A stretch of 29,613 nucleotides of DNA. Source: a virus. A model generated the notes under the pieces. That model did not search any database. It saw only the letters and a program-made list of their open reading frames with translations, and was not told where the DNA came from. A program made the translations under genes and the position numbers. The DNA lies in the IMG/VR virus record IMGVR_UViG_3300037284_000051, positions 1 through 29,613 of that record. The stretch is one strand, 5' to 3'. Each line of letters begins with the position of its first letter. The stretch's first letter is position 1. Below are positions 6,142 through 26,243 of the stretch, one piece after another.

Positions 6142-6640
6142 TCACAGCGCTGACTTGAGGGCAAAGATCGAAGGGGAGCTCTCCTGTGCAACCTGCTCCA
6201 GTTTGTGCCCCCCACTCACGCCGCCGGGCTGAATACTGGGTTGGTGAGGTGAGGCGGAGAAGACGCGGCGTGGTTGTTGAACCAGTCTCCGGCGACGCGG
6301 CTTTCGGCGCCTCCGCCGGCTCGGCGGCTGGCGCAACCATCCCGGAGCCAAACGAGACGTCCTCGTACGTGATGTGAAAGAAGGCTGCTCCTGCCCATTG
6401 GGCAGCTCGAAGCCCGTCGGCACCGGGCTCTTTCCCGGCCCGTCCGGCGTCACCTGCACGTTCGGCATCATCAGGTGGAAGTTCACCTGAACGTCGTCGA
6501 CCCCATCGTTGAAGACCAACTCGTAGTTCTCGTCCAAGGTCCGATTGGTAGGCATGCCCTGGACCGGTCGGTTCGACAAATTGACCATTGCGCCGGTGTT
6601 GCGAGAATATAGCGAAAGGATTCCCTGAGCCGAAGGTCGG
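6142..6640 (-). pseudogene. Frameshifted remnant of an unidentified protein gene at the end of the phage cluster
   Basis: Protein-like sequence is broken over two frames. From about 6588 down to 6390 one frame reads convincingly (NLSNRPVQGMPTNRTL, then NYELVFNDGVDDVQVNFHLM, NVQVTPDGPGKSPVPTGFEL). Near 6385 it turns into low-quality Arg-rich sequence, while the neighbouring frame continues with FFHITYEDVSFGSGMVAPAA. One indel near 6380-6395 would join them. The 5' side has no Shine-Dalgarno and merges at about 6610 into repeat-like DNA. It could be a decayed virion gene, a real programmed frameshift or an assembly error; decay is the simplest reading. Confidence 0.4.
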
Positions 6641-6720
6641 AGCAGTCGAATCCTACGGCGGTTCCCCTCCCTTGAAGCCTGGGGGGTCGAAAGCACTTGA
6701 ACTGAGCTGCTCAGGGTGTC
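6613..6720. repeat. Degenerate dispersed repeat of the CTTCGAC..CTCAGG type
   Basis: Noncoding sequence just downstream of the last intact cluster gene. Its minus strand reads TTCGACTGCTCCGACCTTCG followed by GCTCAGGGAA, and a second similar piece lies at 6700-6720 (CTGCTCAGGGTGTCGA). A related copy is at 28707-28726. It belongs to the common class of short intergenic palindromic repeats. Confidence 0.35.
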
Positions 6721-6722
6721 GA

Positions 6723-6971
6723 TCAGGTCCAGGTATCCTTATTGGTCCAGGAGCCGCCGACCCTCTTTTCTAGGTCCAGGTTTCCCCCCGAGTCGATGAT
6801 CAGCCTCCAGTTGCCGTCTTGATCGAAGTCGGTGTTGCCGTCGGCGATGATCTCCAGCTTTTGATCCTGGATGAGCTTCTGGAGCGTGCGTTTCTCGTCG
6901 GGGGTGGGTAGGCGTTTGTCGATCTCGCGGTGGGGTGTTCTGCCGCTGTTTTGGAGCTGGTTGTGTTTCAT
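6723..6971 (-). CDS. Small protein of the phage-like cluster, function unknown
   Basis: 82 residues. The N-terminal half is charged and helical (PTPDEKRTLQKLIQDQKLEI). The C-terminal half reads GNWRLIIDSGGNLDLEKRVG, then GSWTNKDTWT, a short beta-rich module of the kind found at the ends of phage structural operons. ATG 6971 is preceded by the G-rich end of a family A repeat, which is the only Shine-Dalgarno-like sequence available. It is the last intact gene of the minus-strand cluster. I do not recognise a family. Confidence 0.6.
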   Translation of the reverse strand: MKHNQLQNSGRTPHREIDKRLPTPDEKRTLQKLIQDQKLEIIADGNTDFDQDGNWRLIIDSGGNLDLEKRVGGSWTNKDTWT

Positions 6972-6977
6972 AGGTAG

Positions 6978-7053
6978 GCCCCCCCTCTGTCCCCCCCGTT
7001 TTACGGGGGGGAGGTTATGGCGGTGTCCCCTCCCCGCTCTGCAGGGGGGAGGT
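6978..7053 (-). repeat. Family A repeat, two units (C-run / GTTTTAC or GCTCTGC / G-run hairpin)
   Basis: Two adjacent palindromes, each a C7-like run and a G7-like run around a short AT-containing core, fill the gap between two cluster genes. On the transcribed strand the unit ends in an AGAGGGGGGG stretch 7-8 nt before the next start codon. Same family and orientation as 8581, 13107, 14651, 17431 and 22520. Confidence 0.85.
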
Positions 7054-7055
7054 TG

Positions 7056-8504
7056 TTATTTGACTCCGTAGCTGTAGGTGGCGGCGATGCTTTCTAGGCG
7101 GGTGTCCGGGTCGGTGGCGGTGTTGTCGGTGAAGGTGACGCGGATCTGCAGCAGGTGGAAGCGGGCCCCCAGGTTTTCCCCCACGACGTGCCTCACGTTG
7201 TCTGTGTTGGCCACGGCGGTCGTCCAGCTGCTGGTGGTTCCGTCTAGCTCGGTGCGGTACTCGACTTTGACCTCCATGTCCGTAGCCTGACCACTGACGA
7301 CGGCGGAGATCCGGCTGAGGTACTTCTCACTCGTCGGGTGCCCCATGTCGAGCCAGGAGGAGATGAAGACGTTGTTGGTGGCGGCGCGGAGGAACTGTAC
7401 TCCTTCGTTGACGTTGGCGGCTTGCTCGGTGTTCATCACGAGCTCCCCACCGACCGAGTAGATGTCTCCGTATTCCTGCATCCTCTCGGTTGAGCTCAAG
7501 ATCTGGGTGAACTTACCTCCGCTGAGCAAGTAGATGTATTGGCTGTTCTGGGCGGCGAAGTAGAGGAGGAGGCGTCCTTTCCAGGTCAGAAGCCCCCACA
7601 TATCCGGCACGAATCCCGGGTCCACGACGTCCACGAGCTCGACGCTGTTTCCATCAAAGAGGTAGATGGGGACGCGGTCGAAGGCGGGGTTGGCGCTGTA
7701 GGTGCGGTAGGCACCGGGCGAGAAGTAGACTTTGTCCTCGTGGAGAACGTAGGGAACGGAGAAGTCGAGGTCTGTACTTTCGGGCTTGTACTGGCCAGTC
7801 TCGGAGGGGAGGAAGGCGAGCTCCTGGATGCTGACGGGTTCCTGGTCATCCACGCGGTATATGGCCATGGTCCCGTCATCGTGTCGGCCGAAGAGCATGA
7901 AGTAGTCGCGGAAGTGGAGCCAGGTTCTTATCTCCAGGTCCATCGTTGGGCTGAAGTAACTGGCGAAGGCTGTTCCGGTTGGGTCCCATCTCTTTATGGC
8001 TCCGGTAGTGGTCAGCAGCCAGATGGTGTCTTTGACGGCGAGGAGCCCGTGGGCGTCGCCGTCGGTGTAGTTGGCGCTGATGACGGCGCGGTAGCCGCTG
8101 GCGCCGTAGACGTCGCCGTCGTCGCCGACGAGCATCCATTCGCCGAAGGCGTAGACGACGTTGGCCTTGTGGGCGCCGTCGACGGTGGTGGGTCCCTGGT
8201 TGCGGTAGGTGGTGGAGATCGACCAGTCGTCGTGGTTGATGTAGAAGTTGCCGACGTCGAAGGCCATGCGCTCCTGGCCGACGAGGACAAAGCGGTCGTT
8301 CGCCTCGTCGTAGTGGACGGCCTGGCAGTCGTCGAAGTCGGCGGCGTGGTTGATGCGGGTGGCCCACGTGGGGAAGCGTTTCAGCTGCTGGAGATCCCAC
8401 GTGGGGATGAACTGATCGAGGCTGTAGTAGTCTCCCTTGTGGCGGAAGAACTCGACGTTGGGGGTCTCGAACTCGGTTTGCTGCCACGTCTTGACGGTGG
8501 TCAT
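7056..8504 (-). CDS. Putative virion (tail/baseplate) beta-propeller-like protein
   Basis: 482 residues. ATG 8504 has GGAG 6 nt upstream. There is no signal peptide. The protein is rich in aromatic beta-strand repeats that read like propeller blades (FGEWMLVGDDGDVYGASGY, then VKDTIWLLTTTGAIKRWDPT, then WLHFRDYFMLFGRHDDG, then MWGLLTWKGRLLLYFAAQ). A C-terminal domain of about 100 residues (VKVEYRTELDGTTSSW, then RVTFTDNTATDPDTRLESI) resembles the jelly-roll end of tail proteins. Its place among adaptor and tailspike genes supports a particle component. I do not recognise a named family. Confidence 0.6.
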   Translation of the reverse strand: MTTVKTWQQTEFETPNVEFFRHKGDYYSLDQFIPTWDLQQLKRFPTWATRINHAADFDDCQAVHYDEANDRFVLVGQERMAFDVGNFYINHDDWSISTTYRNQGPTTVDGAHKANVVYAFGEWMLVGDDGDVYGASGYRAVISANYTDGDAHGLLAVKDTIWLLTTTGAIKRWDPTGTAFASYFSPTMDLEIRTWLHFRDYFMLFGRHDDGTMAIYRVDDQEPVSIQELAFLPSETGQYKPESTDLDFSVPYVLHEDKVYFSPGAYRTYSANPAFDRVPIYLFDGNSVELVDVVDPGFVPDMWGLLTWKGRLLLYFAAQNSQYIYLLSGGKFTQILSSTERMQEYGDIYSVGGELVMNTEQAANVNEGVQFLRAATNNVFISSWLDMGHPTSEKYLSRISAVVSGQATDMEVKVEYRTELDGTTSSWTTAVANTDNVRHVVGENLGARFHLLQIRVTFTDNTATDPDTRLESIAATYSYGVK

Positions 8505-8580
8505 GGTATGCTCCGGGCTGTGATTTTTTGGCGAAGGCTTTTGGTTTTGGGTCCCATCTGGGTATAGGGCGTGAAACGTA

Positions 8581-8746
8581 AGGCCCCCCCTCTAATCCCC
8601 CCCGTTTTACGGGGGGGAGGTTACGGCCCCCCCTCGGCTCGAACGTCCGAGCTAGCCTCCCGTTTTACGGGGGGGGGTTGGTGGTGAGGCGCCCCCCCTC
8701 GGCTCGAACGTCCGAGCTAGCCCCCCGCTTTGCGGGGGGGAGGTTA
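8581..8746 (-). repeat. Composite block: three family A units interleaved with two family C palindromes
   Basis: The 250-bp gap after the adaptor gene is almost entirely repeats. Family A hairpins lie at about 8585-8620, 8657-8678 and 8721-8742. The 20-mer GGCTCGAACGTCCGAGCTAG occurs exactly at 8636-8655 and 8701-8720, each joined to a C-run half of family A. The composite order suggests that family C inserted into family A and the pair was then duplicated. Confidence 0.85.
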
Positions 8747-8758
8747 TGGCCGCGCGGG

Positions 8759-10018
8759 CTAGGACCAGGTGTCGTCCCAGCGGTCGAGGGGGCCGGTGTC
8801 GGCGATGCCGCTGTGGCGCGATGCCTCTCGAGAGGCGATGCGGCCGAGGGCGGCTTCGAACTCCCGGAGGCGTTGGATCCCCCACTCCCGAAGATCGCGG
8901 TTTCCCCACCAATGCTCTTTCTCCTGGAGCCGCTCCTGGACGGCGTAGCCGGCGGCGCCGGTGACGATCACATTCAGGTCGCGGTTGCTGACGGTGGTGG
9001 TCGTGGCGCTGTCGAGGTCCTCGAGCTTGTGCTCGGTGGTGTACCATATCCGGAGGACGTCGCCGCTGTCGGGCTCTACGGATTCGTCGATGAATAGGAC
9101 GTCCCCAGGCCAGACCTCGAAGTCGGCCCAGTTGGGCTTGTAGTCGGGGTCGTCTTCGTCGTAGTCTAACCAGACCCGCTCGATGTCCAGGTAGGTGATG
9201 CTGCTGATGTCGACCTCGCGGCCGGCCGCCGAAAGCGTGACGGTGGTGATGGCGCGGCGGGGTTTGACCTCGCTGTAGCGGTACATGGCCCAGCGGATGG
9301 CTTCGTCGATGTCTCCCTGGTCGTAGGCGCGGGCGCGTTTCTCGTATACCCTCAGGTCCATCTGGGCCTGGTAGCGGAAGTTCTTTCCCATCTCGTCGGC
9401 GAATTTCCGGAGCTCGTCGAAGACGTCGTCGTGGGCGGTGATCTCCTCGGCGAGCTCGACCACGCGGGTGTGGGCGGCGAAGTGACAGGCGCCGGTGACG
9501 ATGGTCCCCTCGTCGTCGGCGGGGATGGTGGTCTCGGTGGCGCTGTCGAGGTCCTCGATGGTGTGCATGGCGGTGTACCATATGCGGACGACGTCGCCGC
9601 TGGCCGGGGCGGTGCGGTCGTCGATGAAGAGGACGTCGCCGGGCCAGACCTCGAACTGGCGGAAGTTGGGCGGGTAGGACGGATCCCCGGAGTCGTAGTC
9701 CCACCAGACTTTCTCGATCTGGAGGTCGTCGGTGATCGAGCTGATGTCGATCTCGCGGCCGGCCGTGGAGATGTTGACGGTGTCGAGTTTGTGGTGGGGG
9801 TTGTACTTGCTGTACTGCTCCAGGGCGGTGCGGATGGCTTCGTCGAGGTCGTCGGTCGACCAGCGTTCGTTGGACGCATCCTGGAGGCGAGCCTCGACGC
9901 GGTCCCGGATGGTGGCCAGGTTGTTGCTGCTGGAGGTGAGGACGAGGGGCTCGATCAGGCCGGAGGCAGCCTCCAGCTGGGTGCGGATCCGATCGCGGAT
10001 TGTGTTTAGGGTTGCCAT
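8759..10018 (-). CDS. Phage adaptor-like protein with an internal tandem duplication
   Basis: 419 residues, ATG 10018 with AGGAGG 11 nt upstream. Residues about 36-85 (ATIRDRVEARLQDASNERW, DDLDEAIRTALEQYSKYNP) resemble the helical start of head-tail adaptor proteins of dsDNA phages, where a W..dDLd.AI..A motif is usual. The protein then contains the same domain twice: residues about 57-190 and 235-362 share IDISSIT / VDISSIT, FEVWPGDVLFID in both, and GDVVRIWYT / GDVLRIWYT followed by EDLDSAT in both. The likely role is the connector between portal and tail, or a paired tail ring component; assignment to the adaptor family is moderate, the duplication is certain. Confidence 0.7.
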   Translation of the reverse strand: MATLNTIRDRIRTQLEAASGLIEPLVLTSSSNNLATIRDRVEARLQDASNERWSTDDLDEAIRTALEQYSKYNPHHKLDTVNISTAGREIDISSITDDLQIEKVWWDYDSGDPSYPPNFRQFEVWPGDVLFIDDRTAPASGDVVRIWYTAMHTIEDLDSATETTIPADDEGTIVTGACHFAAHTRVVELAEEITAHDDVFDELRKFADEMGKNFRYQAQMDLRVYEKRARAYDQGDIDEAIRWAMYRYSEVKPRRAITTVTLSAAGREVDISSITYLDIERVWLDYDEDDPDYKPNWADFEVWPGDVLFIDESVEPDSGDVLRIWYTTEHKLEDLDSATTTTVSNRDLNVIVTGAAGYAVQERLQEKEHWWGNRDLREWGIQRLREFEAALGRIASREASRHSGIADTGPLDRWDDTWS

Positions 10019-10019
10019 G

Positions 10020-10549
10020 CTAGATTATCCTCCTGAGCCCAAGGGGCGTTGCTGGGCAGAGCCAAACAACCAGGTCTTTTTTGTGGCGTAAGGGTCGGTC
10101 GAGCCGGGCCGGACAAGGCGCCGCCGACAGCGACGGAGCCAGGGAAGTCACGGAAGCCGACAAAAACAGCCGATCGCAGGCTCGACCGACCCGGCTGGAC
10201 AAGACGAACGCGGACAGCGGCAGAGCCCGCGCTGCACGGGCGGCGGGGGACCGGGGGCGAGGACCCCGGCGGCGGGGGGTCCGGGGGGCCGGACGTGGAG
10301 GCCCCGCCGGGTGGTTCATGATCAGACCACCGTCGGCCGGTGCGGGGCCCCCGGCGGTGCCTTTGTCTTCGGACCACCGTTAGCGTCCCGGGCTCTGCGC
10401 GTCGTTTTGCGCAGGGCCCGGGACGCGGGCCATGCACAACCAGCGACGGAGCTTTGGCGGGCCGCGTCGTGTCGTTGCGGGCCGGCAGAGCGGAGGAGCG
10501 GACCCTTTGTGCAACCCTACCTCCCTCCCCTTCTTCTCCCCTGTCCGCA
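10020..10549. ncRNA. Candidate large structured noncoding RNA inside the phage cluster
   Basis: A 530-nt gene-free, GC-rich interval with strong secondary structure. GCGTCCCGGGC..CTGCGC (10383-10400) pairs with GCGCAG..GCCCGGGACGC (10409-10426) for 18 bp; the one irregular pair is U-G on the plus strand and A/C on the minus strand. GGGTCGGTCGAGCC (10092-10105) pairs perfectly with 10179-10192, closing a 73-nt domain. GGCCCCGC (10300-10307) pairs with 10342-10349 around an inner GGTGGT/ACCACC stem. CAGCGACGGAGC occurs twice (10128-10139, 10441-10452). No ORF in any frame has protein character. Size, setting and complexity recall the ornate phage RNAs GOLLD and ROOL, but I cannot match either. 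The strand is undecided. It could instead be a repeat mosaic. Confidence 0.4.
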
Positions 10550-11944
10550 TCAGATCATCGGTCCCGGGAAGCAGCTGCCGCCGACGCCGGGCTGGGTGAG
10601 GTATTCGAGGGCCCCCATGTCGGGGGCGGATCCGGCGTACGGGAGGCCGACGTCGGTCCCGGCGCCGACCGCGGGCGAGCTGGACTGGGGGCGGTAGTTG
10701 TCGTTGGCGGCGTCGACGAACGCGGCGTCGCCGTAGTCGGAGTTCGCATCTCCGCTGGTCTGGGTCTTCCAGTCGGCAAAGTTGTAGGCGGTCCCCAGGC
10801 GGTGCCAGTGGGTGCTGGTCTCGGTCCCTGCAGAGCGGCGATAGAGGTTATAGTCGACGTCCCATCCGGTGACCCCACAGCCGGTGAGGATCGCACAGAT
10901 CAGCTGGGCGGCCACGTCACACTGGACGATGCAGTTCTTCATGGTGAAGTTCTGCGACCGGGCTTCCCCCCAATAGAGGGTGGCCGTCTCCGTCACCGCG
11001 TTGTGGAAGGTGCAATGGTAGACCGTCACGTCCTGGGCGGCGTGAAACTTGCTCTGGTTGTCTGCAAAGACGCTGTGCTTGATGGTGACGTTGTCCCCCT
11101 GACAGTAGAGGGCATAGGTCGTATTTCCGGTGACGATGCAGCGGTCGACGGTGATCCCGTCCGGATAGTTGGCGGCTTCGGCCGTCTTGTGAATGCGGAT
11201 GCCGGTCTCTGTGTTGTCCCGGAAGGTCGACTCCTTGATCACGATGCTTCGATCGGTGTCCGCCGTGTCGTCCTGTTTCAAAACCTGGATGCCGTGGCCG
11301 TCGTTGGAGTAGCATTCGGCGTTTTCGATGGTGATGTTGTAGGGCATGGTCTCGCCGGGGTGGGAGTGGATGGTGATGCCGCATCCGCCGTCGCCGTTGG
11401 AGTAACACTTGACGTCCCGGAAGGTGATGTCGTGGCCACCGTTGGTGACCTCCAGGCCCGAGATGAGGGCGGTTGGGATGTTGCTATAGCCGTTGTAGAA
11501 GGACCCCCCGATGACGTTGCAGTGATGACAGGCGGTGATGAAGAGGATCCCGTCGTTGCCGTGGTCGTGACAGTCGCAGTTGATGACGTCGACGTAGCTG
11601 CAGGTGGTGAACTGCATCCCGGCAGAGTGTCCCTGGGTGCAGACGAGATTCTCGAACTCGAGGTAGTCCTGTTCGGAGGCGGTGATGGGGACGACAGAGT
11701 CCTCGCCGTCGATGATGGGCCGGGCCCCGGATCCGTAGTCGGCGAAGCGGATGGGGTTGCCGGACTCCCCCGAGGCGGTGACGTCGAGCCGGTCGGCCCA
11801 CGTCTCCCCACGCTTGAAGAGGACCTCGTCGCCGGGGCTGAGCTCGGCGGCGTTGACCTTCTCGATGGTCTGCCAGGGTGCGGCTGAGCTCAAGCCGTCG
11901 TTGTTGTCGTCGCCGGCGGTGGCGTCGACGTAGTAGGTGGTCAT
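10550..11944 (-). CDS. Right-handed beta-helix tailspike-like protein
   Basis: 464 residues. ATG 11944 has GGGAGAG about 7 nt upstream. No signal peptide. The start TTYYVDATAGDDNNDGLS, then PWQTIEKVN and LSPGDEVLFKRGETW, is the classic entry of parallel beta-helix (pectate-lyase-fold) proteins. Residues about 90-340 give short helical turns rich in N, G and aromatic residues (ITIENAECYSNDGHGIQVLK, VIKESTFRDNTETGIRIH). The end (YRPQSSSPAVGAG, APDMGALEY) is the usual closing segment of such repeats. In a virion cluster this suits a receptor-binding tailspike or capsule depolymerase. No catalytic residue can be assigned by eye. Confidence 0.75.
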   Translation of the reverse strand: MTTYYVDATAGDDNNDGLSSAAPWQTIEKVNAAELSPGDEVLFKRGETWADRLDVTASGESGNPIRFADYGSGARPIIDGEDSVVPITASEQDYLEFENLVCTQGHSAGMQFTTCSYVDVINCDCHDHGNDGILFITACHHCNVIGGSFYNGYSNIPTALISGLEVTNGGHDITFRDVKCYSNGDGGCGITIHSHPGETMPYNITIENAECYSNDGHGIQVLKQDDTADTDRSIVIKESTFRDNTETGIRIHKTAEAANYPDGITVDRCIVTGNTTYALYCQGDNVTIKHSVFADNQSKFHAAQDVTVYHCTFHNAVTETATLYWGEARSQNFTMKNCIVQCDVAAQLICAILTGCGVTGWDVDYNLYRRSAGTETSTHWHRLGTAYNFADWKTQTSGDANSDYGDAAFVDAANDNYRPQSSSPAVGAGTDVGLPYAGSAPDMGALEYLTQPGVGGSCFPGPMI

Positions 11945-11979
11945 GGGGATCTCTCCCTCTCAGTCGTTGGCTGCGGCAA

Positions 11980-12023
11980 GGTGACCGGCACCTTAACGAC
12001 GTCTTCGACAGGTGCCGGTCACC
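11980..12023 (-). repeat. Family B palindrome after the gene ending at 12030
   Basis: GGTGACCGGCACCT (11980-11993) and AGGTGCCGGTCACC (12010-12023) form a perfect 14-bp stem with a 16-nt loop. It begins 7 nt past a stop codon. Copies lie at 15282-15325 and 16829-16871, each directly 3' of a virion coding segment. Confidence 0.9.
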
Positions 12024-12029
12024 ATAGGG

Positions 12030-12485
12030 TTACTTGTACCAGATGGTGCCGACGACCTCGTTCGCGCCGGGGGCCCCGGTGTCGGCGTCGGCGAGGCCGG
12101 TCGTGGCGGCGACGCAGATGCCGTTGCTGAAGGGGATCCCCATGACCGGGATGACGGGTGACCATCCGGCGCCGTCGGTGGTGCCGGTGGTCTGGAGGGG
12201 GATGGTCATGACGGGCGTCGTGGTGCCGACGGTGACGTTGGCGGCGGTCTGGTCGTAGAACTTGACGTAGCGTTTCGTAGCGGCGAGGTTGTGGAAGATC
12301 ATGCCGTAGACCTGACCGGCCGATGCTTTTACTTCTTCTTCCGACTCGTCGAGATCGAGGGTCTTATGGATGCTGCAGCCTCCGGCCGCGACGGCCTGGA
12401 GGGTGACCTTGACAAAGCCGTCGGCGTCGACGGCGACGGGGATCAAAGCGTCGTTGGGGTCTTCTGCTAGAATCAGGACGGGCAT
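12030..12485 (-). CDS. Small putative virion protein, function unknown
   Basis: 151 residues. ATG 12485 has AAGGAGA 7-8 nt upstream. The N-terminus MPVLILAEDPNDALIPVAVD, then GFVKVTLQAVA, and the later KRYVKFYDQTAANVTVGTTT, then PVMTIPLQTTG, are typical of small beta-sandwich proteins found in phage structural operons. No signal peptide, membrane segment or catalytic motif. It is followed at once by a family B palindrome, as the capsid gene is, which would suit a highly expressed structural protein. Decoration or tail accessory protein is inferred. Confidence 0.6.
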   Translation of the reverse strand: MPVLILAEDPNDALIPVAVDADGFVKVTLQAVAAGGCSIHKTLDLDESEEEVKASAGQVYGMIFHNLAATKRYVKFYDQTAANVTVGTTTPVMTIPLQTTGTTDGAGWSPVIPVMGIPFSNGICVAATTGLADADTGAPGANEVVGTIWYK

Positions 12486-12542
12486 GTGGGTCTCCTTTTA
12501 GGATCTGATCGGCTGGAACTGGATTGGTCAGACGATTGCCGT

Positions 12543-13103
12543 TTAGGTCCTCCTGGGCGGGTTGGCGTAGATGCGGAAGGCGAGGGTATCCTTGGTGATG
12601 TAGGAGGGCCGGACGATCTGGAGGCGGATCCTGGCCCATTTGAAGGCGGACCAGAGGCTGAATCCGACCTCCAGGAAGAAGCGGACGTAGAGGGCGAGGA
12701 GGTCGGCGCCGCCGATGCGGTTTCGGAGTGCGTAGTTTTTGCCGGGGCCCCCGATGACGGCGCGGGGGCCGCGGGTTGGCTGGTCTGCGTGCATGAGGGC
12801 TTCGAGCATGGGGCTGGGGGTGCCGTCGTCGTCGACGAGCCAGCAGTTAGCGACAAAGACGACGGCTCCCTGCAGGTCGGCCGTGGCGAGCTGACCTGCA
12901 GAGAGCGCCGTCGTGAGGTTATCGCCGTACCAGTACGGCTGTCCTTCGAGACCGTGGAGCTTGAAGTACACAAAGTCGTGGCCTTCGAGGTCCCGGATCT
13001 CGAAAGTCTCCATCGTCGTCGGTGGGCACAGGATGGGCGAGGTCCCGGCCACGCGGCGGACGAGGCGACCGAAGGAAGCCGAGCAGTAGGCGAATGTGTG
13101 CAT
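12543..13103 (-). CDS. CHAT/caspase-like putative cysteine protease in the phage cluster
   Basis: 186 residues from ATG 13103. The segment VYFKLHGLEGQPYWYGD puts a His at residue 50 inside an LHG turn. VVFVANCWLVDDDGTPSPML puts a Cys at residue 87 after a hydrophobic strand. The following ALMHADQPTRGPRAVIGGPG matches the way CHAT-domain proteins continue after their catalytic Cys (AGARAV.. strand). A His-Gly turn and a strand-Cys in this order and spacing are the hallmarks of clan CD peptidases (caspase, CHAT, gingipain). A second Met at residue 31 lacks a Shine-Dalgarno; the chosen ATG follows the G-rich end of a family A repeat. Family assignment is inference from pattern; an inactive fold member is possible. 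Confidence 0.5.
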   Translation of the reverse strand: MHTFAYCSASFGRLVRRVAGTSPILCPPTTMETFEIRDLEGHDFVYFKLHGLEGQPYWYGDNLTTALSAGQLATADLQGAVVFVANCWLVDDDGTPSPMLEALMHADQPTRGPRAVIGGPGKNYALRNRIGGADLLALYVRFFLEVGFSLWSAFKWARIRLQIVRPSYITKDTLAFRIYANPPRRT

Positions 13104-13106
13104 TTA

Positions 13107-13179
13107 GGCCCCCCCTCTTATCCCCCCCGCTTTGCGGGGGGGAGGTTACGGTGCTATCCCCCCGCTTTGCGGGGGGGAC
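13107..13179 (-). repeat. Family A repeat, two units
   Basis: Two hairpins of C-run/GCTTTGC/G-run type are joined by GGTTACGGTGCTATCC. The same junction appears at about 22555-22570, so the two-unit block of roughly 75 bp is itself repeated. It occupies the whole gap between two genes and supplies the G-rich sequence in front of the downstream start codon. Confidence 0.9.
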
Positions 13180-13183
13180 GTGG

Positions 13184-14341: not shown

Positions 14342-14358
14342 TGTGTCCTCCTCCTTGC

Positions 14359-14403
14359 GTTGGAAGGTTTGAACGTTGGAAGGTTGGAACGTTGGAACGT
14401 TGG
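14359..14403. repeat. Short tandem repeat, TTGGAAGG / TTGGAACG units
   Basis: About six 7-9-bp units of the form TTGGAAGG, TTTGAACG and TTGGAACG lie in tandem directly upstream of the start region of the fibre-like gene. The adjacent 14413-14441 holds a GCGGATG/CATCCGC hairpin. Confidence 0.8.
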
Positions 14404-14462
14404 GTATCCGGGCCGCGGATGACCATTGTGCCGGTGCATCCGCGACCCCCTTTGGTATCGTG

Positions 14463-14873: not shown

Positions 14874-14875
14874 GA

Positions 14876-15247
14876 TCACCCCTCCTGGAACCAGAGGACG
14901 ATGCAGGGGTCCGCGGGGTCTGTACCGGCGCCGACGTCGATCCCCACGGCGACGATGTCGCCCTCGTCGAGGTGGGGGTAGTCGTCCCCCTGGTTGGACA
15001 CGAGGGCGCCGTCGAAGTCGTCCAGATCCCACACGGTGGGCGTGTCGTCCTGGCCGATGGCTTCGTTATCGAGGTAGCCGTCCGGGTCCGCCTTGGTGCC
15101 GACGTTGATGTAGGTCGAGGTGGCGGTGTTGTTGGCGGCCGCGCAGATTTCCCGGAGGGTGCAAGCGCACGGGACCTTGAAGAAGAACGTCGCGTCGGCG
15201 GCGATGGTGCCGGGCATGGCGATGGCGACTGAGAACATGTTGAACAT
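14876..15247 (-). CDS. Small putative capsid-associated protein, function unknown
   Basis: 123 residues. ATG 15247 has AGGAGG 5 nt upstream; the longer ORF start is inside the preceding repeat. It reads as a beta-rich soluble protein (ADATFFFKVPCACTLREIC, STYINVGTKADPDGYLDNEA, DEGDIVAVGIDVGAG, PCIVLWFQEG). It sits immediately after the major capsid gene, the usual place of a decoration or cement protein, which is the inferred role. Its stop overlaps a GTG of the next gene. Confidence 0.6.
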   Translation of the reverse strand: MFNMFSVAIAMPGTIAADATFFFKVPCACTLREICAAANNTATSTYINVGTKADPDGYLDNEAIGQDDTPTVWDLDDFDGALVSNQGDDYPHLDEGDIVAVGIDVGAGTDPADPCIVLWFQEG

Positions 15248-15281
15248 CGTTACCTCCTGTTTAGGCGTTGGTTGACTTGGA

Positions 15282-15325: not shown

Positions 15326-15331
15326 GTAGGG

Positions 15332-19341: not shown

Positions 19342-19407
19342 GGTGGTGTCTCCTGTAGCTCCAACCAAACCCAAACGAAAGTCCAACCCAATTCGGCGAC
19401 GAAACCC

Positions 19408-19437
19408 TTGACAAGCGGATTCCGCGTGTGGTATGAT
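19408..19437 (+). promoter_or_regulatory. Sigma70-type promoter opposite to the operon
   Basis: TTGACA (19408-19413), an 18-bp spacer and TATGAT (19432-19437), the latter preceded by TGG and so having an extended -10. It lies in the longest gap of the head-gene region and points away from the portal gene, towards 19438-19614. Confidence 0.6.
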
Positions 19438-19443
19438 GGGGGG

Positions 19444-19614
19444 TAACCCTCATTAGCCCCGCTTCAGGGGTTCGACGTGATCTCCGGGCGAAGGAGGGCG
19501 CGAGACCACCCCTCCGGTTCGAGGTGAGACTGCAGCCCGGGCTACTGGGCGAAGGTTTTCCCTCTGGTGCCCAACCAGCTTGAGGGGTGGTCGCCTTATC
19601 CACTAGCGCCCTCC
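19444..19614 (+). ncRNA. Candidate structured small RNA, antisense to the end of the lytic-protein gene
   Basis: The predicted start is about 7 nt past the -10 box. A long-range stem closes the molecule: GGAGGGCGC (19493-19501) with GCGCCCTCC (19606-19614), then ACCACCCCTC (19505-19514) with GAGGGGTGGT (19582-19591), 19 perfect pairs in two steps. Inside are CTGGT/ACCAG and GGGC/GCCC hairpins. The 5' part has CCCC/GGGG (about 19457-19470) and CTCC/GGAG hairpins. There is no ORF. The last 19 nt overlap the 3' end of the gene ending at 19596. I compared it mentally with 6S, SRP, tmRNA and common riboswitches and found no match. No T-run terminator is visible, so the 3' end is uncertain. Confidence 0.4.
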
Positions 19615-22139
19615 TGGACTCTGACCAACGCGTCGGCGAGCTTGCGTGAGAAGTCCCCCTCGACGTCGAAGTACTTCCAGTCGCTGTTACCGCCGAAGAG
19701 GAAGAGGAGGGCGGCTTTTAGCCGGCCGCCGTTGTGCGCGTTCCAGTCGACCAGGTAGCGGTTGAGGAGGAGGAGCTCTTCGACGTAGCGGTCGGCAGCC
19801 TGGGGGCCCATGGTCTGTGGCCAGCGCCAGCCAGCGCCCGCGTTGCACATGCCGTGGACGGGGTCGTAGTAGATGGCCCCGAGCTCGGTCAGGTAGTGGT
19901 CGATGACGACGTCGTGTTCGCAAAGTACCTTGTCGATCGAAAGCAAGGAACGCATCGAATAGTGGAAGCGGTTGGGTCGGCCGTCGCTGTCTTCCGTGGT
20001 CAGGGTACAGAACCCATCTGCCCTCGATCCGTGGTAGGCGTGGTGTCCGAATCCACCTCGAGCGTAGGCCAGCGCCCGAGCTCCGCGGACCATGAGCTTG
20101 ATCTGCCGTTCGATCCCCCGGGCGTCACAGAGGTGGTCGTGTTCCGGGTTGCCGACGCCGGTGTTGAAGCCGATGGGGCGGGCGGGGTAGCCGATGCGCT
20201 CCAGGGCGGCGCAGAGGGCTTCGAGCCAGATCCCGCTGGCCCGAAGGGCGGCGTAGTCGTCGATGGCGATGTACTCATTCAACCCGGTGACAAAGTCGAT
20301 CCAGGGGGCGTTTCTCTCGAGAGAGCCCCTGAATTTGTTGAGGAAGCGGTCGGCGGCGGCGTCCGGGTCGTCGGCGAAGAGGTAGGACCCCCAGTCGTTG
20401 TCGACGTAGCGGATGATCACCTTGGTCTCGGGGGACAGCTCCTTGATCCTCCTGGCTTCCTCGTATCCCTGCAAGAGCATCCAGGCGGGGGGCTTGACGC
20501 GGCTGATGAACTCGTCGCGGCCCTCGCCGTAGCGTTGTTGTTGTGCGCCGAACAGGACCGGAGGTCCGACGTCGCCGGTGGGTGGGCTGGGCTGAGGAGC
20601 GGGGGGCTCCGGGATGGGCTGGAGGGTCGGAGTGATCACTCGGGCGGCGCGGATGCCGAGGTAGTCCTCGATGGTCCAGACCTGGCGGGTGCCGTCCCAC
20701 GTTTCGATGACGTGCAACTCTTCTCCTTCTACCCGCTCCAGGACGACAAAGTGCTTGCCGTCGTCCCGTCTGAGGATCACGACGTGGTCTTTCAGTAGGC
20801 TCTTGAGCTCGAACTCGGACAGGCGGCGGTTGTGTTTGATGGGATCCTGGAGACGAGAGAACAAGCTGCAGAAACCGGCTCGACCGTTCCAGGCTCCCCA
20901 GTCGATCAGGTTGCCCTCGAAGTAGGCCACGCGAGCATTGACGAGGAGCTGGTCCAGGATGGGCGGGGTGACGTCGGTCCCGTACAGGTCCCTCAACACG
21001 ATGCAACACGCATCCAGCAGGCAGCCATAGGCTCCGGTCCTGGAGACGGGATCCTCGCCGAAGCGGTGGTCGGCCCAGCGGGGGTCGGTCATCCCGATGG
21101 CGACGTCTTCTGTGAGCGGGGGGAGGAGTTTAACCCCGATCTCGGCGGGCGATTCTCCGTCGATGAATGAGAGCTTGACGTGCGGGTAGTTTGATTCGAT
21201 GTATGGCCGGAGCTCGGCCTCGGCCCATCCGACGGCCTTGACGCTGCAGACGTCGGGGCCGGTGGCGGCGTCTTCTACGCTCTGGGCGTCGGTCCCTTTG
21301 AGGCGGGGGTGGCTGCAGGCGATGGCTCCGGCTGCTCTGAGCTCGGGACCGGCCTGGGGGCCGAAGAGGACGGCGGTTTTTTCGTAGTCGAAGGCGGGCG
21401 GGTGCCAAGAGATGTCCTCCTCTTGCTGGTCGACCTGCACAAGCGAGACTCCATCCCAGTAGCCGTCGAGGTTGCGGAAGGGCCAGCGCATCCTCTGCTG
21501 CAGAAAGACGGTGATGACGTGTTCTTCTGCCAGGGCGGAGACGTGGAGCGCGTGGAAGGCGTTGTAGATGGCCATAGCCCTCGACCAGATCACCCGGCCG
21601 CTGGTTGGATCTCCGCCGCCGGTGGGGTCTATGCCTACGCTGAAAGCGGCGGTGTGGAGGGCATCGGACCAGGGGTCTCCGTTCAAGGGGGGCAGGTCGT
21701 CGACGTAGGCGGCGTATGCGGCCCGACCGGCGCCCCAGCTGCAGAGGGGATCACCGCAACAGTCCTCGTGGCCAGGGACGGCGTCTTTGTCGTTGTGGTT
21801 GCACCATCCGTGGGCGAGGGCCTGGAGACAGTACCGCTGGCCCAGGGTGACGTCGACCTGGGTCTTGAGGCCGGCCCAGATGGGGCCAGCGGGTCCGAAG
21901 ATGCGGTAGCTCTGCTGGCCATGGTCGACGCGTTCCGGGTTGAGGTGGCGCTGCATGAAGGACGATTCGGGCTCGGTCCAGTCCGGGTGTTTGTGTATGT
22001 ACCACACGTCCCACCCATCGGGCTTCTGGATCTGCTGTTTTTGTCTGCGGTATGGAGCTCGGCCCACGGGATAGACTACGACGTCGTGGGATCCGGTCCA
22101 CGGCGTCTCGAGAGAGGGCAGTCGGTTGGCGGTGGTCAT
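19596..22139 (-). CDS. Large putative lytic protein: C39-like peptidase domain plus glycoside-hydrolase-like domain
   Basis: 847 residues, ATG 22139 overlapping the previous stop (ATGA). Residues 1-340 begin with a possible carbohydrate-binding fold (YRIFGPAGPIWAGLKTQVDV) followed by a Cys/Trp-rich part. Residues about 345-490 resemble a C39-type peptidase: Cys373 in YGCLLDACC, His463 in DDGKHFVVLE and Asp482 in ETWDG make a plausible triad, with the usual DPRWADHRFG lead-in. A Pro-rich linker (about 505-525) leads to a TIM-barrel-like domain with TGLNEY (Asn621-Glu622), the general acid/base signature of clan A glycosidases. There is no signal peptide. In a phage cluster, cell-wall degradation is the natural inference. 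The combination is not one I know as a standard endolysin. Confidence 0.6.
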   Translation of the reverse strand: MTTANRLPSLETPWTGSHDVVVYPVGRAPYRRQKQQIQKPDGWDVWYIHKHPDWTEPESSFMQRHLNPERVDHGQQSYRIFGPAGPIWAGLKTQVDVTLGQRYCLQALAHGWCNHNDKDAVPGHEDCCGDPLCSWGAGRAAYAAYVDDLPPLNGDPWSDALHTAAFSVGIDPTGGGDPTSGRVIWSRAMAIYNAFHALHVSALAEEHVITVFLQQRMRWPFRNLDGYWDGVSLVQVDQQEEDISWHPPAFDYEKTAVLFGPQAGPELRAAGAIACSHPRLKGTDAQSVEDAATGPDVCSVKAVGWAEAELRPYIESNYPHVKLSFIDGESPAEIGVKLLPPLTEDVAIGMTDPRWADHRFGEDPVSRTGAYGCLLDACCIVLRDLYGTDVTPPILDQLLVNARVAYFEGNLIDWGAWNGRAGFCSLFSRLQDPIKHNRRLSEFELKSLLKDHVVILRRDDGKHFVVLERVEGEELHVIETWDGTRQVWTIEDYLGIRAARVITPTLQPIPEPPAPQPSPPTGDVGPPVLFGAQQQRYGEGRDEFISRVKPPAWMLLQGYEEARRIKELSPETKVIIRYVDNDWGSYLFADDPDAAADRFLNKFRGSLERNAPWIDFVTGLNEYIAIDDYAALRASGIWLEALCAALERIGYPARPIGFNTGVGNPEHDHLCDARGIERQIKLMVRGARALAYARGGFGHHAYHGSRADGFCTLTTEDSDGRPNRFHYSMRSLLSIDKVLCEHDVVIDHYLTELGAIYYDPVHGMCNAGAGWRWPQTMGPQAADRYVEELLLLNRYLVDWNAHNGGRLKAALLFLFGGNSDWKYFDVEGDFSRKLADALVRVQEGASG

Positions 22140-23395
22140 AGCAGCATCCCGGGTTGGACGTCCAAGCCCATGACCAGAGACTGGTCTCGTGAGCTGACGG
22201 TAACGTCGGTGGCCAGGATCGGGACGCCCATCTTATCGAGATCCCGGTCGACGTCGGCGGGCTCGAGCTCGAAGCGGTCGGCGAGCTCCTCCACCAGGCG
22301 CATCCGCTGGCGGGTGGTGATCGCGTCGAGGTCGAGCTGGTAGGCTTGCTGCGGTGTGTCGTGTTCGGGAAGTTCTACCATGATGGGAACGATCGAGACG
22401 ATGGGGACGGTGGGGGTGTCTCTGTTGGGCTGCGGAAAGACGCGAGCCCACAGGGCGGCTCTCTCTTCGTCGTGTACGGTGGCTGTAGTCAGCCACTGGT
22501 CTTTGGTGTTAGGCATTGGGGCCCCCCTCTTATCCCCCCCGCTCTGCGGGGGGGAGGTTACGGTGCTATCCCCCCCGCTTTGCGGGGGGGAGGTTTGGCG
22601 GTCTCCCCCCGTTTTACGGGGGGGAGGAGCAGGGAAGACGTCCTCGAGGGGCTGGCGGGCTTCGTGGAGATAGGACGTGTAGCGTCGACTGGCGCCGCCG
22701 TTGCGTAGCGAGCGGTCGACCTCCACGGCTTTTTTCCAGTCCTCGGGGCACCTACGGATCTCCTCCCACGTGGCGTCGTCGTGGAAGGGGCAAAAGACAC
22801 AGCTTGAGCTCGGCGGGGCGGGGAGGTTGTGGTCCTGGAGCCAGGCTCTTGCTTCCTCTGGTCCAATCCCGGCTCGAACGTCCGAGCTAGGCTCGATCAA
22901 CGGGAAGCGGTGGGTAATGTACTGGACGCGGCTGGGTGTACGTTCGGCTCTGTGGGCTTCTTTGGCGTGGAACCCGATCCACTGTTCGACGGTGCCGGGT
23001 AGGAGCTTGAGACCTCGTTCCCGGATCATCTTCCTGATGTGACGTTTGGCGGGTCTCACTTTCCAGTCCCGGTTGCACTGCCTTGGTGCCATGCCGTGCT
23101 TTCCCTCTGGTGAGACGGTGAAGACGGGGGGCATCACGGCGCCGCGCTGGATGACGCGATTGTCCTTCGGGGTGACGTTGGCCACGGGGATGCCGCGCTT
23201 CTCGAGCCAGGGAGTCCAGTTCTGGGCGAAGATCCGGGTGGGCGTCCGTTCGTGGTCGGTGTCAGCGTGGATCGCGACGTCGACGAGCGGGACCTGCCCT
23301 AGGGCGGACATCGCGGCCAGGGTCCAGGAGTCGAGCCCCCAACCGAGAGACAGGACTCTCAAGGCCGGTCGACGGCGTGGCTTACCATTCGGCAT
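22136..23395 (-). CDS. PAPS-reductase-like PP-loop protein fused through repeats to a small protein
   Basis: 419 residues. ATG 23395 has GGAGG 9 nt upstream; the TTG six bases earlier is too close to that site. Residues about 14-27 (VLSLGWGLDSWTLA) align with the PP-loop of phage phosphoadenosine-phosphosulfate-reductase-like proteins, although the usual G..S is altered. CNRDWKVRP (about 107) and CVFCPFHDDATWEEIRRCPE (about 199) are typical of that family and may hold a metal or iron-sulfur site. Such phage proteins are suspected in nucleic acid or base modification. Residues 257-292 are three translated family A repeats. Residues 294-419 (from MPNTKDQWL) look like a once separate small protein. 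A family C repeat is read as SSDVRAG at about residue 170. Confidence 0.65.
   Translation of the reverse strand: MPNGKPRRRPALRVLSLGWGLDSWTLAAMSALGQVPLVDVAIHADTDHERTPTRIFAQNWTPWLEKRGIPVANVTPKDNRVIQRGAVMPPVFTVSPEGKHGMAPRQCNRDWKVRPAKRHIRKMIRERGLKLLPGTVEQWIGFHAKEAHRAERTPSRVQYITHRFPLIEPSSDVRAGIGPEEARAWLQDHNLPAPPSSSCVFCPFHDDATWEEIRRCPEDWKKAVEVDRSLRNGGASRRYTSYLHEARQPLEDVFPAPPPRKTGGDRQTSPPQSGGDSTVTSPPQSGGDKRGAPMPNTKDQWLTTATVHDEERAALWARVFPQPNRDTPTVPIVSIVPIMVELPEHDTPQQAYQLDLDAITTRQRMRLVEELADRFELEPADVDRDLDKMGVPILATDVTVSSRDQSLVMGLDVQPGMLL
22520..22627 (-). repeat. Family A repeat, three tandem units, inside a coding frame
   Basis: Three hairpin units (cores GCTCTGC, GCTTTGC, GTTTTAC) are read in frame as PPPRKTGG, SPPQSGG and SPPQSGGDKRG. 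They link the PP-loop protein to the downstream segment, whose ATG (22516) begins just past the last unit. Confidence 0.9.
22871..22890 (-). repeat. Family C palindrome inside the PP-loop gene
   Basis: An exact copy of the 20-mer GGCTCGAACGTCCGAGCTAG also found at 8636 and 8701. It is translated in frame as PSSDVRAG. Confidence 0.85.
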
Positions 23396-24920
23396 CGTCA
23401 ATGTCCTCCAGGACGTCGCCGACCTCGACGGAGGCGCCCTCGGCGGATCCGGGCCAGTCCTGCTGGTCGAGGATCGCGGTTAGGGCGGCCGAGATGATCA
23501 GGTCGTCGTGTCCGTATGCTATGAGGCCGTCATAAGCCACGTCGTCCCACACTCCCCACTTGAGCAAGCGGTTGGGTCCGGGTCGGACCTCCCGCTGGCA
23601 ATTGTTGACCTCGTACCAAAACTGTCGGGTGTCCTGCTGTTCGTCGTCGAAGTAGTCGCGGTAGCGGCCGGTCTCGACGATGCCCAGGAAGTTCCAGCCG
23701 AGGTCCGATTTCACCTTTGAGCTGAATACCACGGGAATGACCTTCCCTCCATCGTCGTCGCGGTGATCCCCCAGGGCCTTCGTCAAGAAGGACGTGAGCC
23801 CGGCGCCGACCCCGGTGGCGTCGACGACGACCCAGACGGCTCTCCAGTGGTTGACGAGGGCCAGGATCTGCTGATAGAGTGTGGTATGCTTGACCCCCAG
23901 CCAGAGCTTGCGGTCCACCACGCGGTATGTGGGGAGGGATCCGTATTCGTAGTCGACGTCGACCACGGTCAGCGCGGTGGCGTCTCGCTGGGGGTTGGCA
24001 AGCATCGCTCGCTCGTGTGGGTCGCCTTCCGTCTCGTCCTCGCCGGCCACGTCCACGAGGAGGGCATAGCGGTGGCCAGGGGTGGGCTCGTGGGCGCGGT
24101 AGTGATCTCCGCGCATCAGGGCGCGGCGTTGGGGTGGGAACATGCCGCCCAGCGCGTCGATCTCCTCGAGGAAGTACTGCGTCTTGACCAGGGGATGGTT
24201 GCGGCCCATCTTCTGGACCCTCTTCGCGACAAAGAGCCTGTAGGCGGGGACCTCGGCGCCGACGGTCTCGGCGTCGTACTTGAAGACGCGGCGGATCCCG
24301 TCGCGCTTCTGCTGACGCTCCAGGTAGGCGATGGTCTGGGCCAGGAACGTCTGGGAGGTCCAGGCGGTGCCGGTGAAGACCGTCGTCGCGTTGGTGGCGG
24401 CGGCCATCGGCTCGAAGTCCTTCCCCCACTTCTCGGCGAGGACGTCCTGGGCCTCGTCGCACTCGAGCATCAGGGATGCGGTCCCACCCACGACGTTGGC
24501 GGTCGGCTCTGCAGAGAAGAAGAGGCAGCGGGCGTTCCCCAGCTGGAAGATGTACCCCTCGCGGCGTCTCCAGCGGCCGGCGTTCCAGTCGTTGGACAGG
24601 TGCTCCTCGAGACGGAGCATCGAATTGACCGTCTGCGGCTTGAAGGTGGGGGATGCTTTCACGATCTGGCCGCCCTTGCGCTGGTAGAGATTCAGCAGGT
24701 ACGCCTCCAGCTGGGCGGTCATTTCGTTCTTCCCCGCCTGTCGGGACATCATGACAGCGAACTCCTGCCCCCGGCCGTGGAGGATCGAGTGAAGGATCGC
24801 TCGGGCGGGTTGGAGCTGGTAGGCGCGGAGGGGTCGGTGGAGCACCAGGCGGGAGAAGCGACTGATGTCGAGGGCCCAGAGGGCGAGAATGCGGGCGGTG
24901 GTGGCTACGGACCGGCGCAT
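23382..24920 (-). CDS. terL: Terminase large subunit
   Basis: 512 residues from ATG 24920, which has GGAGGA 6 nt upstream; earlier in-frame sequence belongs to the intergenic repeat and the small terminase. The protein pumps DNA into the prohead and cuts it. Walker A is SRQAGKNE (residues 59-66), Walker B is LMLECDEAQD (about 150-159), and the nuclease acidic residues are Asp290 (LLVDVAGED), Asp367 (VVVDATGVGAG) and Asp472/473 (YGHDDLIISAAL). The adenine-binding side has LRAYQLQPA (31-39). Length and motif order are those of an intact, potentially active terminase. It lies between the small terminase and the PP-loop gene, overlapping the latter by 14 nt. Confidence 0.95.
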   Translation of the reverse strand: MRRSVATTARILALWALDISRFSRLVLHRPLRAYQLQPARAILHSILHGRGQEFAVMMSRQAGKNEMTAQLEAYLLNLYQRKGGQIVKASPTFKPQTVNSMLRLEEHLSNDWNAGRWRRREGYIFQLGNARCLFFSAEPTANVVGGTASLMLECDEAQDVLAEKWGKDFEPMAAATNATTVFTGTAWTSQTFLAQTIAYLERQQKRDGIRRVFKYDAETVGAEVPAYRLFVAKRVQKMGRNHPLVKTQYFLEEIDALGGMFPPQRRALMRGDHYRAHEPTPGHRYALLVDVAGEDETEGDPHERAMLANPQRDATALTVVDVDYEYGSLPTYRVVDRKLWLGVKHTTLYQQILALVNHWRAVWVVVDATGVGAGLTSFLTKALGDHRDDDGGKVIPVVFSSKVKSDLGWNFLGIVETGRYRDYFDDEQQDTRQFWYEVNNCQREVRPGPNRLLKWGVWDDVAYDGLIAYGHDDLIISAALTAILDQQDWPGSAEGASVEVGDVLEDIDDAEW

Positions 24921-25003
24921 GGGCGCTCCTCCGGACGGGCGGCGAGATATTGTTTCTTCGAGGGTGACATTTTTCGTAAGGAACAAGTATTCCTTTGAGG
25001 GCG

Positions 25004-25107
25004 AGACCCTAAAGGTTTTTCCTGGAGGGACCGGCTCTTCGCTTTCCGGTGGGTATCTGGCGATTGGCGGTGGGTTGGTGGGTTCATGGTAGAAACCTTT
25101 AGGGTCT
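25004..25107. repeat. MITE-like element with perfect 15-bp inverted repeats between the terminase genes
   Basis: AGACCCTAAAGGTTT (25004-25018) and AAACCTTTAGGGTCT (25093-25107) are perfect inverted repeats around 74 nt. The local sequence is AT-richer than the flanks, and a second hairpin (AAGGAA/TTCCTT) lies at 24978-24995. No transposase is present. It separates the small and large terminase genes and could form a long stem in the mRNA. I see no clear target-site duplication. Confidence 0.6.
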
Positions 25108-25113
25108 GCTGGG

Positions 25114-25656
25114 TCATAGGTCGACGCCGAGCTCGGCGCTGAGTTGATCGAGGGCGCGGTTGAGGGCCTCCTCGAGGTGGCCGCCGGTCTCCCCGGTGAT
25201 CGCGCGCCTTTGACGGAGGAGGCGACCGAGGCGGCTGGCGTTCTGGCCGTGGATGCGGAGGAGGCCGCCCAGTTGCTCGACGGTAAGGTCTTCCATATGG
25301 GCATGGATGTACCGCGAGAGGACGGCCAGCTTGAGAGAGACGTCGGTGATGAGGATCTCGATGGACCATCCCTGGAGGTCGCTCAGGCGGCCGGGGTCGA
25401 GCCCACCCGGCAGAAGGAAGTCGTCGAGCCTGGCGACGTCGTCGTCAGGGATGCTCGCCACGACGCGGCGCAAGGTGGAGGGGTCCGCGTAGGCCCCGTG
25501 CTTGAGGGCGTTGGTGTTGCCGGGAGGAGCGCCGATGGGGGCGTCGGTGCCGCCGTGGGCGCCGCAGCGGGGTGGATCGCTGCCGCGGACGGCCCAGGCG
25601 CGACAGGGCTCCCCATCGGCGCGGAGGGCGGTGCAGCGTTTGCTCCGGGTGCTCAT
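25114..25656 (-). CDS. terS: Putative terminase small subunit
   Basis: 180 residues, ATG 25656 with GAGAGG about 6 nt upstream. The N-terminus has a Cys/His cluster that may bind zinc (Cys8, Cys18, Cys31, His34 in RCGAHGG). It is followed by GAPPGNTNALKHGAY, a signature very common at the start of phage small terminase and related DNA-binding proteins. The C-terminal two thirds are helical with a likely oligomerisation segment (LKLAVLSRYIHAHMEDLTVE, LNRALDQLSAEL). Its position just before the large terminase supports the role of DNA recognition at packaging initiation. Assignment rests on context plus the KHG motif. Confidence 0.7.
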   Translation of the reverse strand: MSTRSKRCTALRADGEPCRAWAVRGSDPPRCGAHGGTDAPIGAPPGNTNALKHGAYADPSTLRRVVASIPDDDVARLDDFLLPGGLDPGRLSDLQGWSIEILITDVSLKLAVLSRYIHAHMEDLTVEQLGGLLRIHGQNASRLGRLLRQRRAITGETGGHLEEALNRALDQLSAELGVDL

Positions 25657-25666
25657 CGTGTCCCTC

Positions 25667-25726
25667 TCATTCGACGGCGAGGTGACGGAGGAGCCGGAAG
25701 AGGACGTGGTAGAGTTGCTCGATCAT
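25667..25726 (-). CDS. 19-residue ORF overlapping the holin-like stop
   Basis: MIEQLYHVLFRLLRHLAVE starts at ATG 25726, whose first bases overlap the TGA of the holin-like gene (ATGA), and ends 10 nt before the small terminase start. It is an amphipathic helix. Translational coupling would allow expression, but it has no independent Shine-Dalgarno and may be only a coupling spacer. Confidence 0.3.
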   Translation of the reverse strand: MIEQLYHVLFRLLRHLAVE

Positions 25727-25965
25727 GATTGGAGCCTGTCCTGTGCGTTCAAGCCGTCCTCCAGGGCGGTGCCCAGGATGTAGCCGACGATAGTGATAAC
25801 GGCGGCGGTCAGGGCCTGCTGGTCGACGCCAGCGCGGGGGCCGAGGACGATGAAGGCGACGGCGACGACGGTGGCCCAGAATTTGCGGGAGCGGAGGAGC
25901 AAGTGAAGCTTGCTCTGGAGCTCCGGCGGGAGCGGGGTCGGGCGATGCGACGGGACCTCGGACAT
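25723..25965 (-). CDS. Holin-like small membrane protein
   Basis: 80 residues. ATG 25965 has AAGGAGG 4 nt upstream; the longer ORF start lies in the structured leader. A Pro-rich soluble start is followed by RKFWATVVAVAFIVLG and AALTAAVITIVGYILGTALEDG (approximate reading: QQALTAAVITIVGYILG), two hydrophobic segments, and a polar C-terminus. Size and topology fit phage holin-like proteins, which open the membrane for the lytic enzyme. It is the first gene after the operon promoter, so in this cluster lysis is encoded at the head and not at the tail of the transcript. Confidence 0.6.
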   Translation of the reverse strand: MSEVPSHRPTPLPPELQSKLHLLLRSRKFWATVVAVAFIVLGPRAGVDQQALTAAVITIVGYILGTALEDGLNAQDRLQS

Positions 25966-25976
25966 GGTGCCTCCTT

Positions 25977-26208
25977 GTGCTGCCTGGTGGGGAGCGGCCC
26001 GGGCGGGTGCCCTCCCCCGGGCGCGCTCCCCATTGAACGAAGAAAGGGTGCCGGCGTGGTGGCGTTCGATCCTCGGCCCGGGGGCGGATTGAGGCCCGCC
26101 TCCGGCGAGGGAATCGCGTTCCACCGCGCGTGGGCACCCTTCGTTGCGCGCTTGTGGCCGAGCGGCGGGCGATGGAGGCCCGCGACGTTGCCGCTCGGGT
26201 AATTTGTT
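25977..26208 (-). ncRNA. Structured 5' leader of the phage-like operon, or a separate small RNA
   Basis: The transcript from the 26215-26243 promoter would begin with about 240 nt of untranslated, GC-rich RNA made of three adjacent domains: CCGAGCGGC/GCCGCTCGG (26158-26198) with an inner GGGC/GCCC; a long imperfect hairpin whose ends GGGTGCC and AACGAA (26036-26052) pair with 26133-26145; and GGGGAGCG plus GCCCGGG (25989-26003) pairing with 26016-26031. The last domain ends 20 nt before the holin-like Shine-Dalgarno. It could be a regulatory leader, a packaging-site structure next to the terminase genes, or an independent RNA. I recognise no known riboswitch. Confidence 0.45.
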
Positions 26209-26214
26209 GGGAAC

Positions 26215-26243
26215 ATTATAGCATAGTGGAGATTAGTTGTCAA
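26215..26243 (-). promoter_or_regulatory. Consensus sigma70 promoter of the phage-like operon
   Basis: Minus strand: TTGACA (26243-26238), exactly 17 bp, then TATAAT (26220-26215). Both hexamers are perfect. It lies in a short AT-rich island upstream of the whole minus-strand cluster and is the only strong minus-strand promoter I found for it. Confidence 0.85.

Follow-up and report, generated by a model that had tools for sequence, protein, structure and literature searches.

Why should a full set of phage late genes stand alone between host genes, with nothing beside it to integrate or replicate it? The question is raised by IMG/VR record IMGVR_UViG_3300037284_000051, a single metagenome record of 29,613 bases that was analysed in its entirety (hereafter, the window) and whose host, we infer, is probably a member of the Chloroflexota. 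A preliminary description, made from the letters alone, saw in this DNA a one-strand capsid, packaging and lysis module and proposed that it was a domesticated system resembling a gene transfer agent (GTA), or a short-tailed particle system. We arrive at a different reading: the window would hold a late-only defective prophage, left by a temperate short-tailed phage of Chloroflexota that lost its early half but kept its late operon whole. We place the probability of this reading at about 0.6.

The evidence that carries it comes from relatives. Scans of viral contigs gave 20 loci with the large terminase subunit (TerL) and 29 with the portal protein, and a genome collection contains 59 family loci, nearly all of them in Chloroflexota. 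By TerL the nearest relatives are L002 (93% identity over the core) and L003/L022 (89%), which together with the window form a fully supported clade inside a group of 29 rows. Those at 55-70% identity are temperate phages, in which the late order from TerL to the tail nozzle is preserved and is followed by a tyrosine integrase and some 20 kb of early genes. A tyrosine integrase is present in 7 of the 20 longer family records. One relative, G010 (L117/L118), is a complete circular genome of 40.7 kb (its ends overlap by 127 nucleotides at 100% identity) and possibly a phage-plasmid. Its late genes are ordered as in the window, the integrase follows on the other strand past the last tail gene, and the early half of ~20 kb encodes, with the integrase, an FtsK/SpoIIIE-like translocase and a ParM-like actin. 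In both G008 and G010 the integrase lies within ~2.5 kb after the homologue of the window's gene at 6723-6971, and it is at 6723 – the point where the early half of the relatives would begin – that the conserved genes of the window end. With the G002/G008/G010 group the window shares homologous TerL, portal, protease-capsid fusion, adaptor and nozzle genes in matching order; what it lacks is the integrase and early module. A search throughout the record found no tyrosine integrase, and none of the window's other open reading frames (ORFs) could be identified as an early gene of a type present in G010, in agreement with the absence of integration and replication genes noted previously. The preliminary description had also suggested that an integrase or replication module just outside the equivalent genes of a relative would indicate an ordinary prophage. 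This is the arrangement found, with integrase and early module right beside the late genes; therefore the window is best seen as one half of what an ordinary temperate phage carries, and corresponds to the late half of a genome organized like that of G010.

The late operon is intact from 6723 to 26243 and every ORF of the cassette is on the minus strand, as originally reported. Its features, with the sites that precede them, are in order of transcription:

26253-26292, minus strand: three upstream boxes, TATCCCAAA / TTTCCCAAA / TATCCCAAA, found by pattern search; candidate operators
26215-26243, minus strand: sigma-70 promoter TTGACA-17-TATAAT with extended TG, matching at 12/12 positions
25966-26212, minus strand: predicted structured 5' leader RNA with three hairpins (~250 nucleotides), between promoter and first gene
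25723-25965, minus strand: holin-like small membrane protein (likely start 25965); weak PHROG holin matches, 69-74% identity in L002 and L022
25114-25656, minus strand: terminase small subunit (TerS); phrog_9231, E=3.5e-6; NCBIfam TerS match below cut-off; 75-82% in L002/L022
23382-24914, minus strand: TerL, 510 amino acids; start probably 24914
22136-23401, minus strand: PP-loop or PAPS-reductase-like gene plus a second ORF; phrog_424, E=2.8e-28
19596-22139, minus strand: putative lytic enzyme (lysin), 847 amino acids; no library match, two-part domain structure read by eye
17953-19386, minus strand: portal; phrog_10963, E=8.6e-28
15332-17956, minus strand: prohead protease/major capsid fusion, start probably 17956; Phage_capsid_4, E=6e-33; PHROG head protease/capsid; NCBIfam protease-major capsid protein fusion below cut-off
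14876-15301, minus strand: small late protein downstream of the capsid, conserved across the family (29-78%)
14463-15032, minus strand: helix-hairpin-helix protein; weak Pfam matches to that motif
13184-14341, minus strand: membrane-anchored, fibre-like protein; phrog_28766 tail fibre, E=2e-6
12543-13103, minus strand: conserved late protein with no assigned function; 38-86% identity across the family
12030-12485, minus strand: conserved late protein with no assigned function; 85% in L022
10550-11944, minus strand: right-handed beta-helix protein, probable tailspike; PF13229, E=8.7e-15
8759-10018, minus strand: head-tail adaptor, a tandem duplication of the usual domain; structure model and fold search
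7056-8504, minus strand: tail nozzle, beta-propeller; structure model and PDB fold search
6723-6971, minus strand: small gene that closes the conserved late module; homologues at the equivalent place in G008, G010 and L162

The ATGA overlaps reported between portal and capsid (17953-17956), between PP-loop gene and lysin (22136-22139) and after the holin (about 25723) were all located. The module had been drawn at 6142-26243: its late operon is real, but the conserved part ends at 6723, not 6142, and the ORF at 6142-6696, whose frame appears by eye to be shifted half-way, matched nothing in any search. Host genes do close both sides. On the left are a host-like tRNA-Val (4061-4135) and a lipoprotein gene whose relatives sit in Chloroflexota genomes; the next gene past 26295 on the right encodes an SLC13/DASS permease with relatives of 52% identity in Chloroflexota. 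Because no direct repeat of at least 11 nucleotides joins the two flanks, no intact prophage ends (attachment-site repeats) are seen. Attachment at tRNA-Val was considered and rejected: a matching repeat was not found at the right end, and the complete relatives contain no tRNA. A search for an empty site by way of the SLC13 gene yielded relatives of 52% at best, in short loci without the other flank genes.

The late genes are under strong purifying selection, including on the window's own branch. Ratios of nonsynonymous to synonymous change (dN/dS; simple counts of the Nei-Gojobori type, with no fitted model) against L022 are 0.17 for TerL, lysin and adaptor, 0.19 for the portal and 0.30 for the capsid; on the window's own branch omega is 0.076 for TerL and 0.114 for the portal, near the values of the sister branches. 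No frame with detectable homologues is broken, and the ATPase and nuclease residues of TerL, previously described as intact, are invariant across the alignment. Neither of the proposed signs of decay – many disrupted genes and relaxed dN/dS – was found. Since frames are intact and dN/dS is low, the operon was functional until very recently or is still used. These data fit a recently stranded prophage and a domesticated operon equally; old decay is excluded.

A promoter scan returned five promoter-like sites (1.9 expected from shuffles), of which the sole 12/12 site, at 26243-26215, is the perfect promoter noted before. Promoter and boxes are kept in L002 and L022 and everything further upstream diverges: the alignment of the three stops at 26294-26295, with unrelated flanks beyond, of which only 217 and 239 bases are known in L002 and L022. 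This limit may mark a site of recombination, or no more than the point where a conserved regulatory region stops. The L002 flank contains a repeat of chromosomal type that, when sought in 51 Chloroflexota genomes, gave one match, in G021; the flank may or may not be host DNA. The boxes were also tried as transposon ends and rejected, inverted copies not being found at the left end. The leader folds far better than shuffles (z-score -4.8): across window, L002 and L022, 95.9% of pair cells are standard, versus 39-53% in slid controls, and the hairpins carry four two-sided changes. With three sequences, the evidence for the predicted structure is good but not final. No credible Rfam match was obtained, and the leader may act on the long late transcript by attenuation or antitermination.

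The particle is most likely short-tailed (podovirus-like), with nothing obviously missing from its tail, judging from structure models of moderate confidence. The nozzle model (predicted local distance difference test score, pLDDT, 67; predicted template modelling score 0.72) is a beta-propeller; all of its top four matches in the PDB are tail proteins of phages, Sf6 gp8 and P22 gp10 coming first and the VP1 and Pa223 tails next, the fold match to the P22/Sf6 type being at only about 10% identity. The adaptor model (pLDDT 68) matches the adaptors of KHP30, GP4, crAss001, N4 and others. The adaptor gene contains internal tandem repeats (8990-9192 and 9524-9726), and in distant relatives the match is limited to the first half, which suggests that their adaptor is a single domain. 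Tape measure, sheath and tube are indeed absent; their absence had been taken as a loss, but it is expected because nozzle and adaptor are of the short-tail type. The short-tailed particle module and its probable Chloroflexota host, as first proposed, are thus supported.

According to the reading we favor, the integrase, partition, replication and repressor genes were lost and the late operon was left in the chromosome. Transcription from 26243 would lead to HK97-type heads made from the protease-capsid fusion; these would be filled through TerS, TerL and portal, closed by adaptor and nozzle, and furnished with fibres and spikes before the cell is lysed. Having no replication or excision genes of its own, such an element could package only host DNA or the genome of a helper. 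Two observations weigh against a defective prophage. One is the absence of broken genes together with low dN/dS, so that decay must be very recent; the other is the shared limit at 26295, which a random deletion would hardly produce and which speaks more strongly than anything else for a defined unit.

That limit is the basis of one alternative, in which the cassette is a mobile unit that truly ends at 26295: a recombination site would lie just outside the late promoter, and the recombinase would be supplied from elsewhere or have been lost with the left end. An outer limit common to three elements with different flanks is as expected, but the left end has no matching repeat, the boxes resemble operator sites beside a promoter, and in G008 and G010 the integrase lies past the last tail gene, on the opposite side of the late module; we think a mobile unit unlikely. 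An artefact of assembly or binning, with a phage contig misjoined to host DNA and the early half missing only from the assembly, might be suspected of a lone metagenome record whose cassette is rich in repeats, which can break assemblies. Yet it would take two separate joins, one per side, the right-hand one coinciding with a boundary conserved in two other samples, and the G+C content of flanks and cassette is alike: an artefact is very improbable.

A further alternative is domestication. A host that retained only the late operon, together with the promoter, boxes and leader that belong to it, placed it under a host regulator and made short-tailed particles carrying host DNA would account for an intact 20-kb operon under strong purifying selection down to the terminal branch, for the missing integrase, and for the fact that three relatives agree in promoter, boxes and leader but diverge upstream at one point. 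But L002 and L022 reveal only 217-239 bp beyond that boundary, and a free phage lineage under selection would yield equal dN/dS. The close relatives, moreover, are temperate phages, and occurrence is patchy: 61 of the 400 Chloroflexota genomes searched have a portal relative, and identity reaches only 57% (in G021). A GTA is defined by a fixed place in related hosts and by packaged DNA of the host. No host flank genes are shared across the family loci, and neither synteny with the same host genes nor a TerL tree following that of the hosts, both of which a GTA would require, was found in the genomes searched, all from outside the host genus. With relatives temperate and occurrence patchy, the GTA-like inference of the preliminary description is weak, and we hold domestication to be quite unlikely. 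A short-tailed Chloroflexota GTA in the full sense – a selected late operon with one promoter, three operator boxes and a leader-RNA gate, at least three lineages having lost the early half before their split – is decidedly unlikely.

Several observations concern the family at large. In G021 (Thermoflexales; L163, L164) TerS, TerL and portal stand alone, with a histidine kinase gene on one side and NifX/MinD-type genes on the other, an evident remnant; other remnants are a truncated TerL in L162 and a portal with an in-frame stop in L026. A conserved late cluster in Dehalococcoidia was considered as a GTA and rejected, its host neighbours not being shared. Scans with nozzle, adaptor, lysin and leader added few new members, and the GenBank phage collection gave distant matches only (TerL 37% at best; none for the adaptor). 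The lysin is 79% identical in L022 and 71% in L187; in L187 it precedes a terminase and portal without detectable relation to window genes, and therefore moves between phages. Repeat DNA connects the two parts of the PP-loop ORF, a gene of ~256 codons and a second ORF whose start is at 22516; the PP-loop gene was not detected in L022 and is located elsewhere in L161 and L045.

A C-run palindromic repeat is present in seven copies (6973-7046, 8579-8749, 13104-13177, 14648-14721, 17429-17502, 22516-22625). Some copies fill gaps between genes; others are translated in frame, as TSPPQSGGDKRGG, within protein linkers, including that of the helix-hairpin-helix protein (14648-14721). None was found in the host flanks, 20 relatives or 400 Chloroflexota genomes. 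A 52-nucleotide palindrome, resembling repetitive extragenic palindromes, occurs in three copies with a conserved loop (11979-12030, 15281-15332, 16827-16878) and is absent from the flanks; in Chloroflexota genomes the pattern tested gave a single copy, in one genome. In L022 the same loop stands between different arms (1541-1598, 10502-10559, 12515-12572). Repeats as proof of long chromosomal residence were rejected: dispersed repeats occur in further members of the family too, among them one that has an integrase. Outside the cassette, the noncoding segment 3370-3590, upstream of a deoxyribosyltransferase gene, ends in a terminator-like hairpin and looks by eye like a small RNA; it matches nothing in Rfam, however, and its folding energy is unremarkable. 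An ARAGORN call of tRNA-Ala at 10672-10763 was rejected, being within a coding gene and without Rfam support.

Phages of Chloroflexota are barely described, and a lineage that occurs in many metagenomes now has its late genes, tail type and late promoter defined by the window. Should late-only copies prove to be fixed at one place in related hosts, they would be candidates for a short-tailed GTA. The literature searched on Chloroflexota phages, phage-plasmids and GTAs held nothing specific, and no Chloroflexota GTA was found there.

How, then, does the locus compare with known systems? The tail of RcGTA is long and siphovirus-like. Like the window, this alphaproteobacterial agent has its late genes in one operon with one promoter, no integrase or replication genes, and particle genes under selection (PMC9765227). 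Late genes without integration or replication genes, and purifying selection on particle genes, are likewise seen here, the latter being found in phages too and thus not specific. RcGTA is conserved across many alphaproteobacterial genomes, whereas here the distribution is patchy and the tail most likely short. Capsid-forming phage-inducible chromosomal islands are small elements with their own capsid and packaging genes; they have integrase and replication genes and no tail genes, the reverse of the window. The short tails of P22 and Sf6 are alike in nozzle fold (Sf6 gp8, P22 gp10) and beta-helix spike, but the window differs in its tandemly duplicated adaptor and in a capsid fused to its protease. 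Closest are the uncultivated temperate phages G010 (IMGVR_UViG_3300033513_000025) and G002 (IMGVR_UViG_3300031539_008075), with TerL at 66-68%, portal at 57-60%, capsid at 49-51% and adaptor at 56-58% identity and the same late order: the difference is that they possess a tyrosine integrase and ~20 kb of early genes (FtsK-like and ParM-like in G010), of which the window has none.

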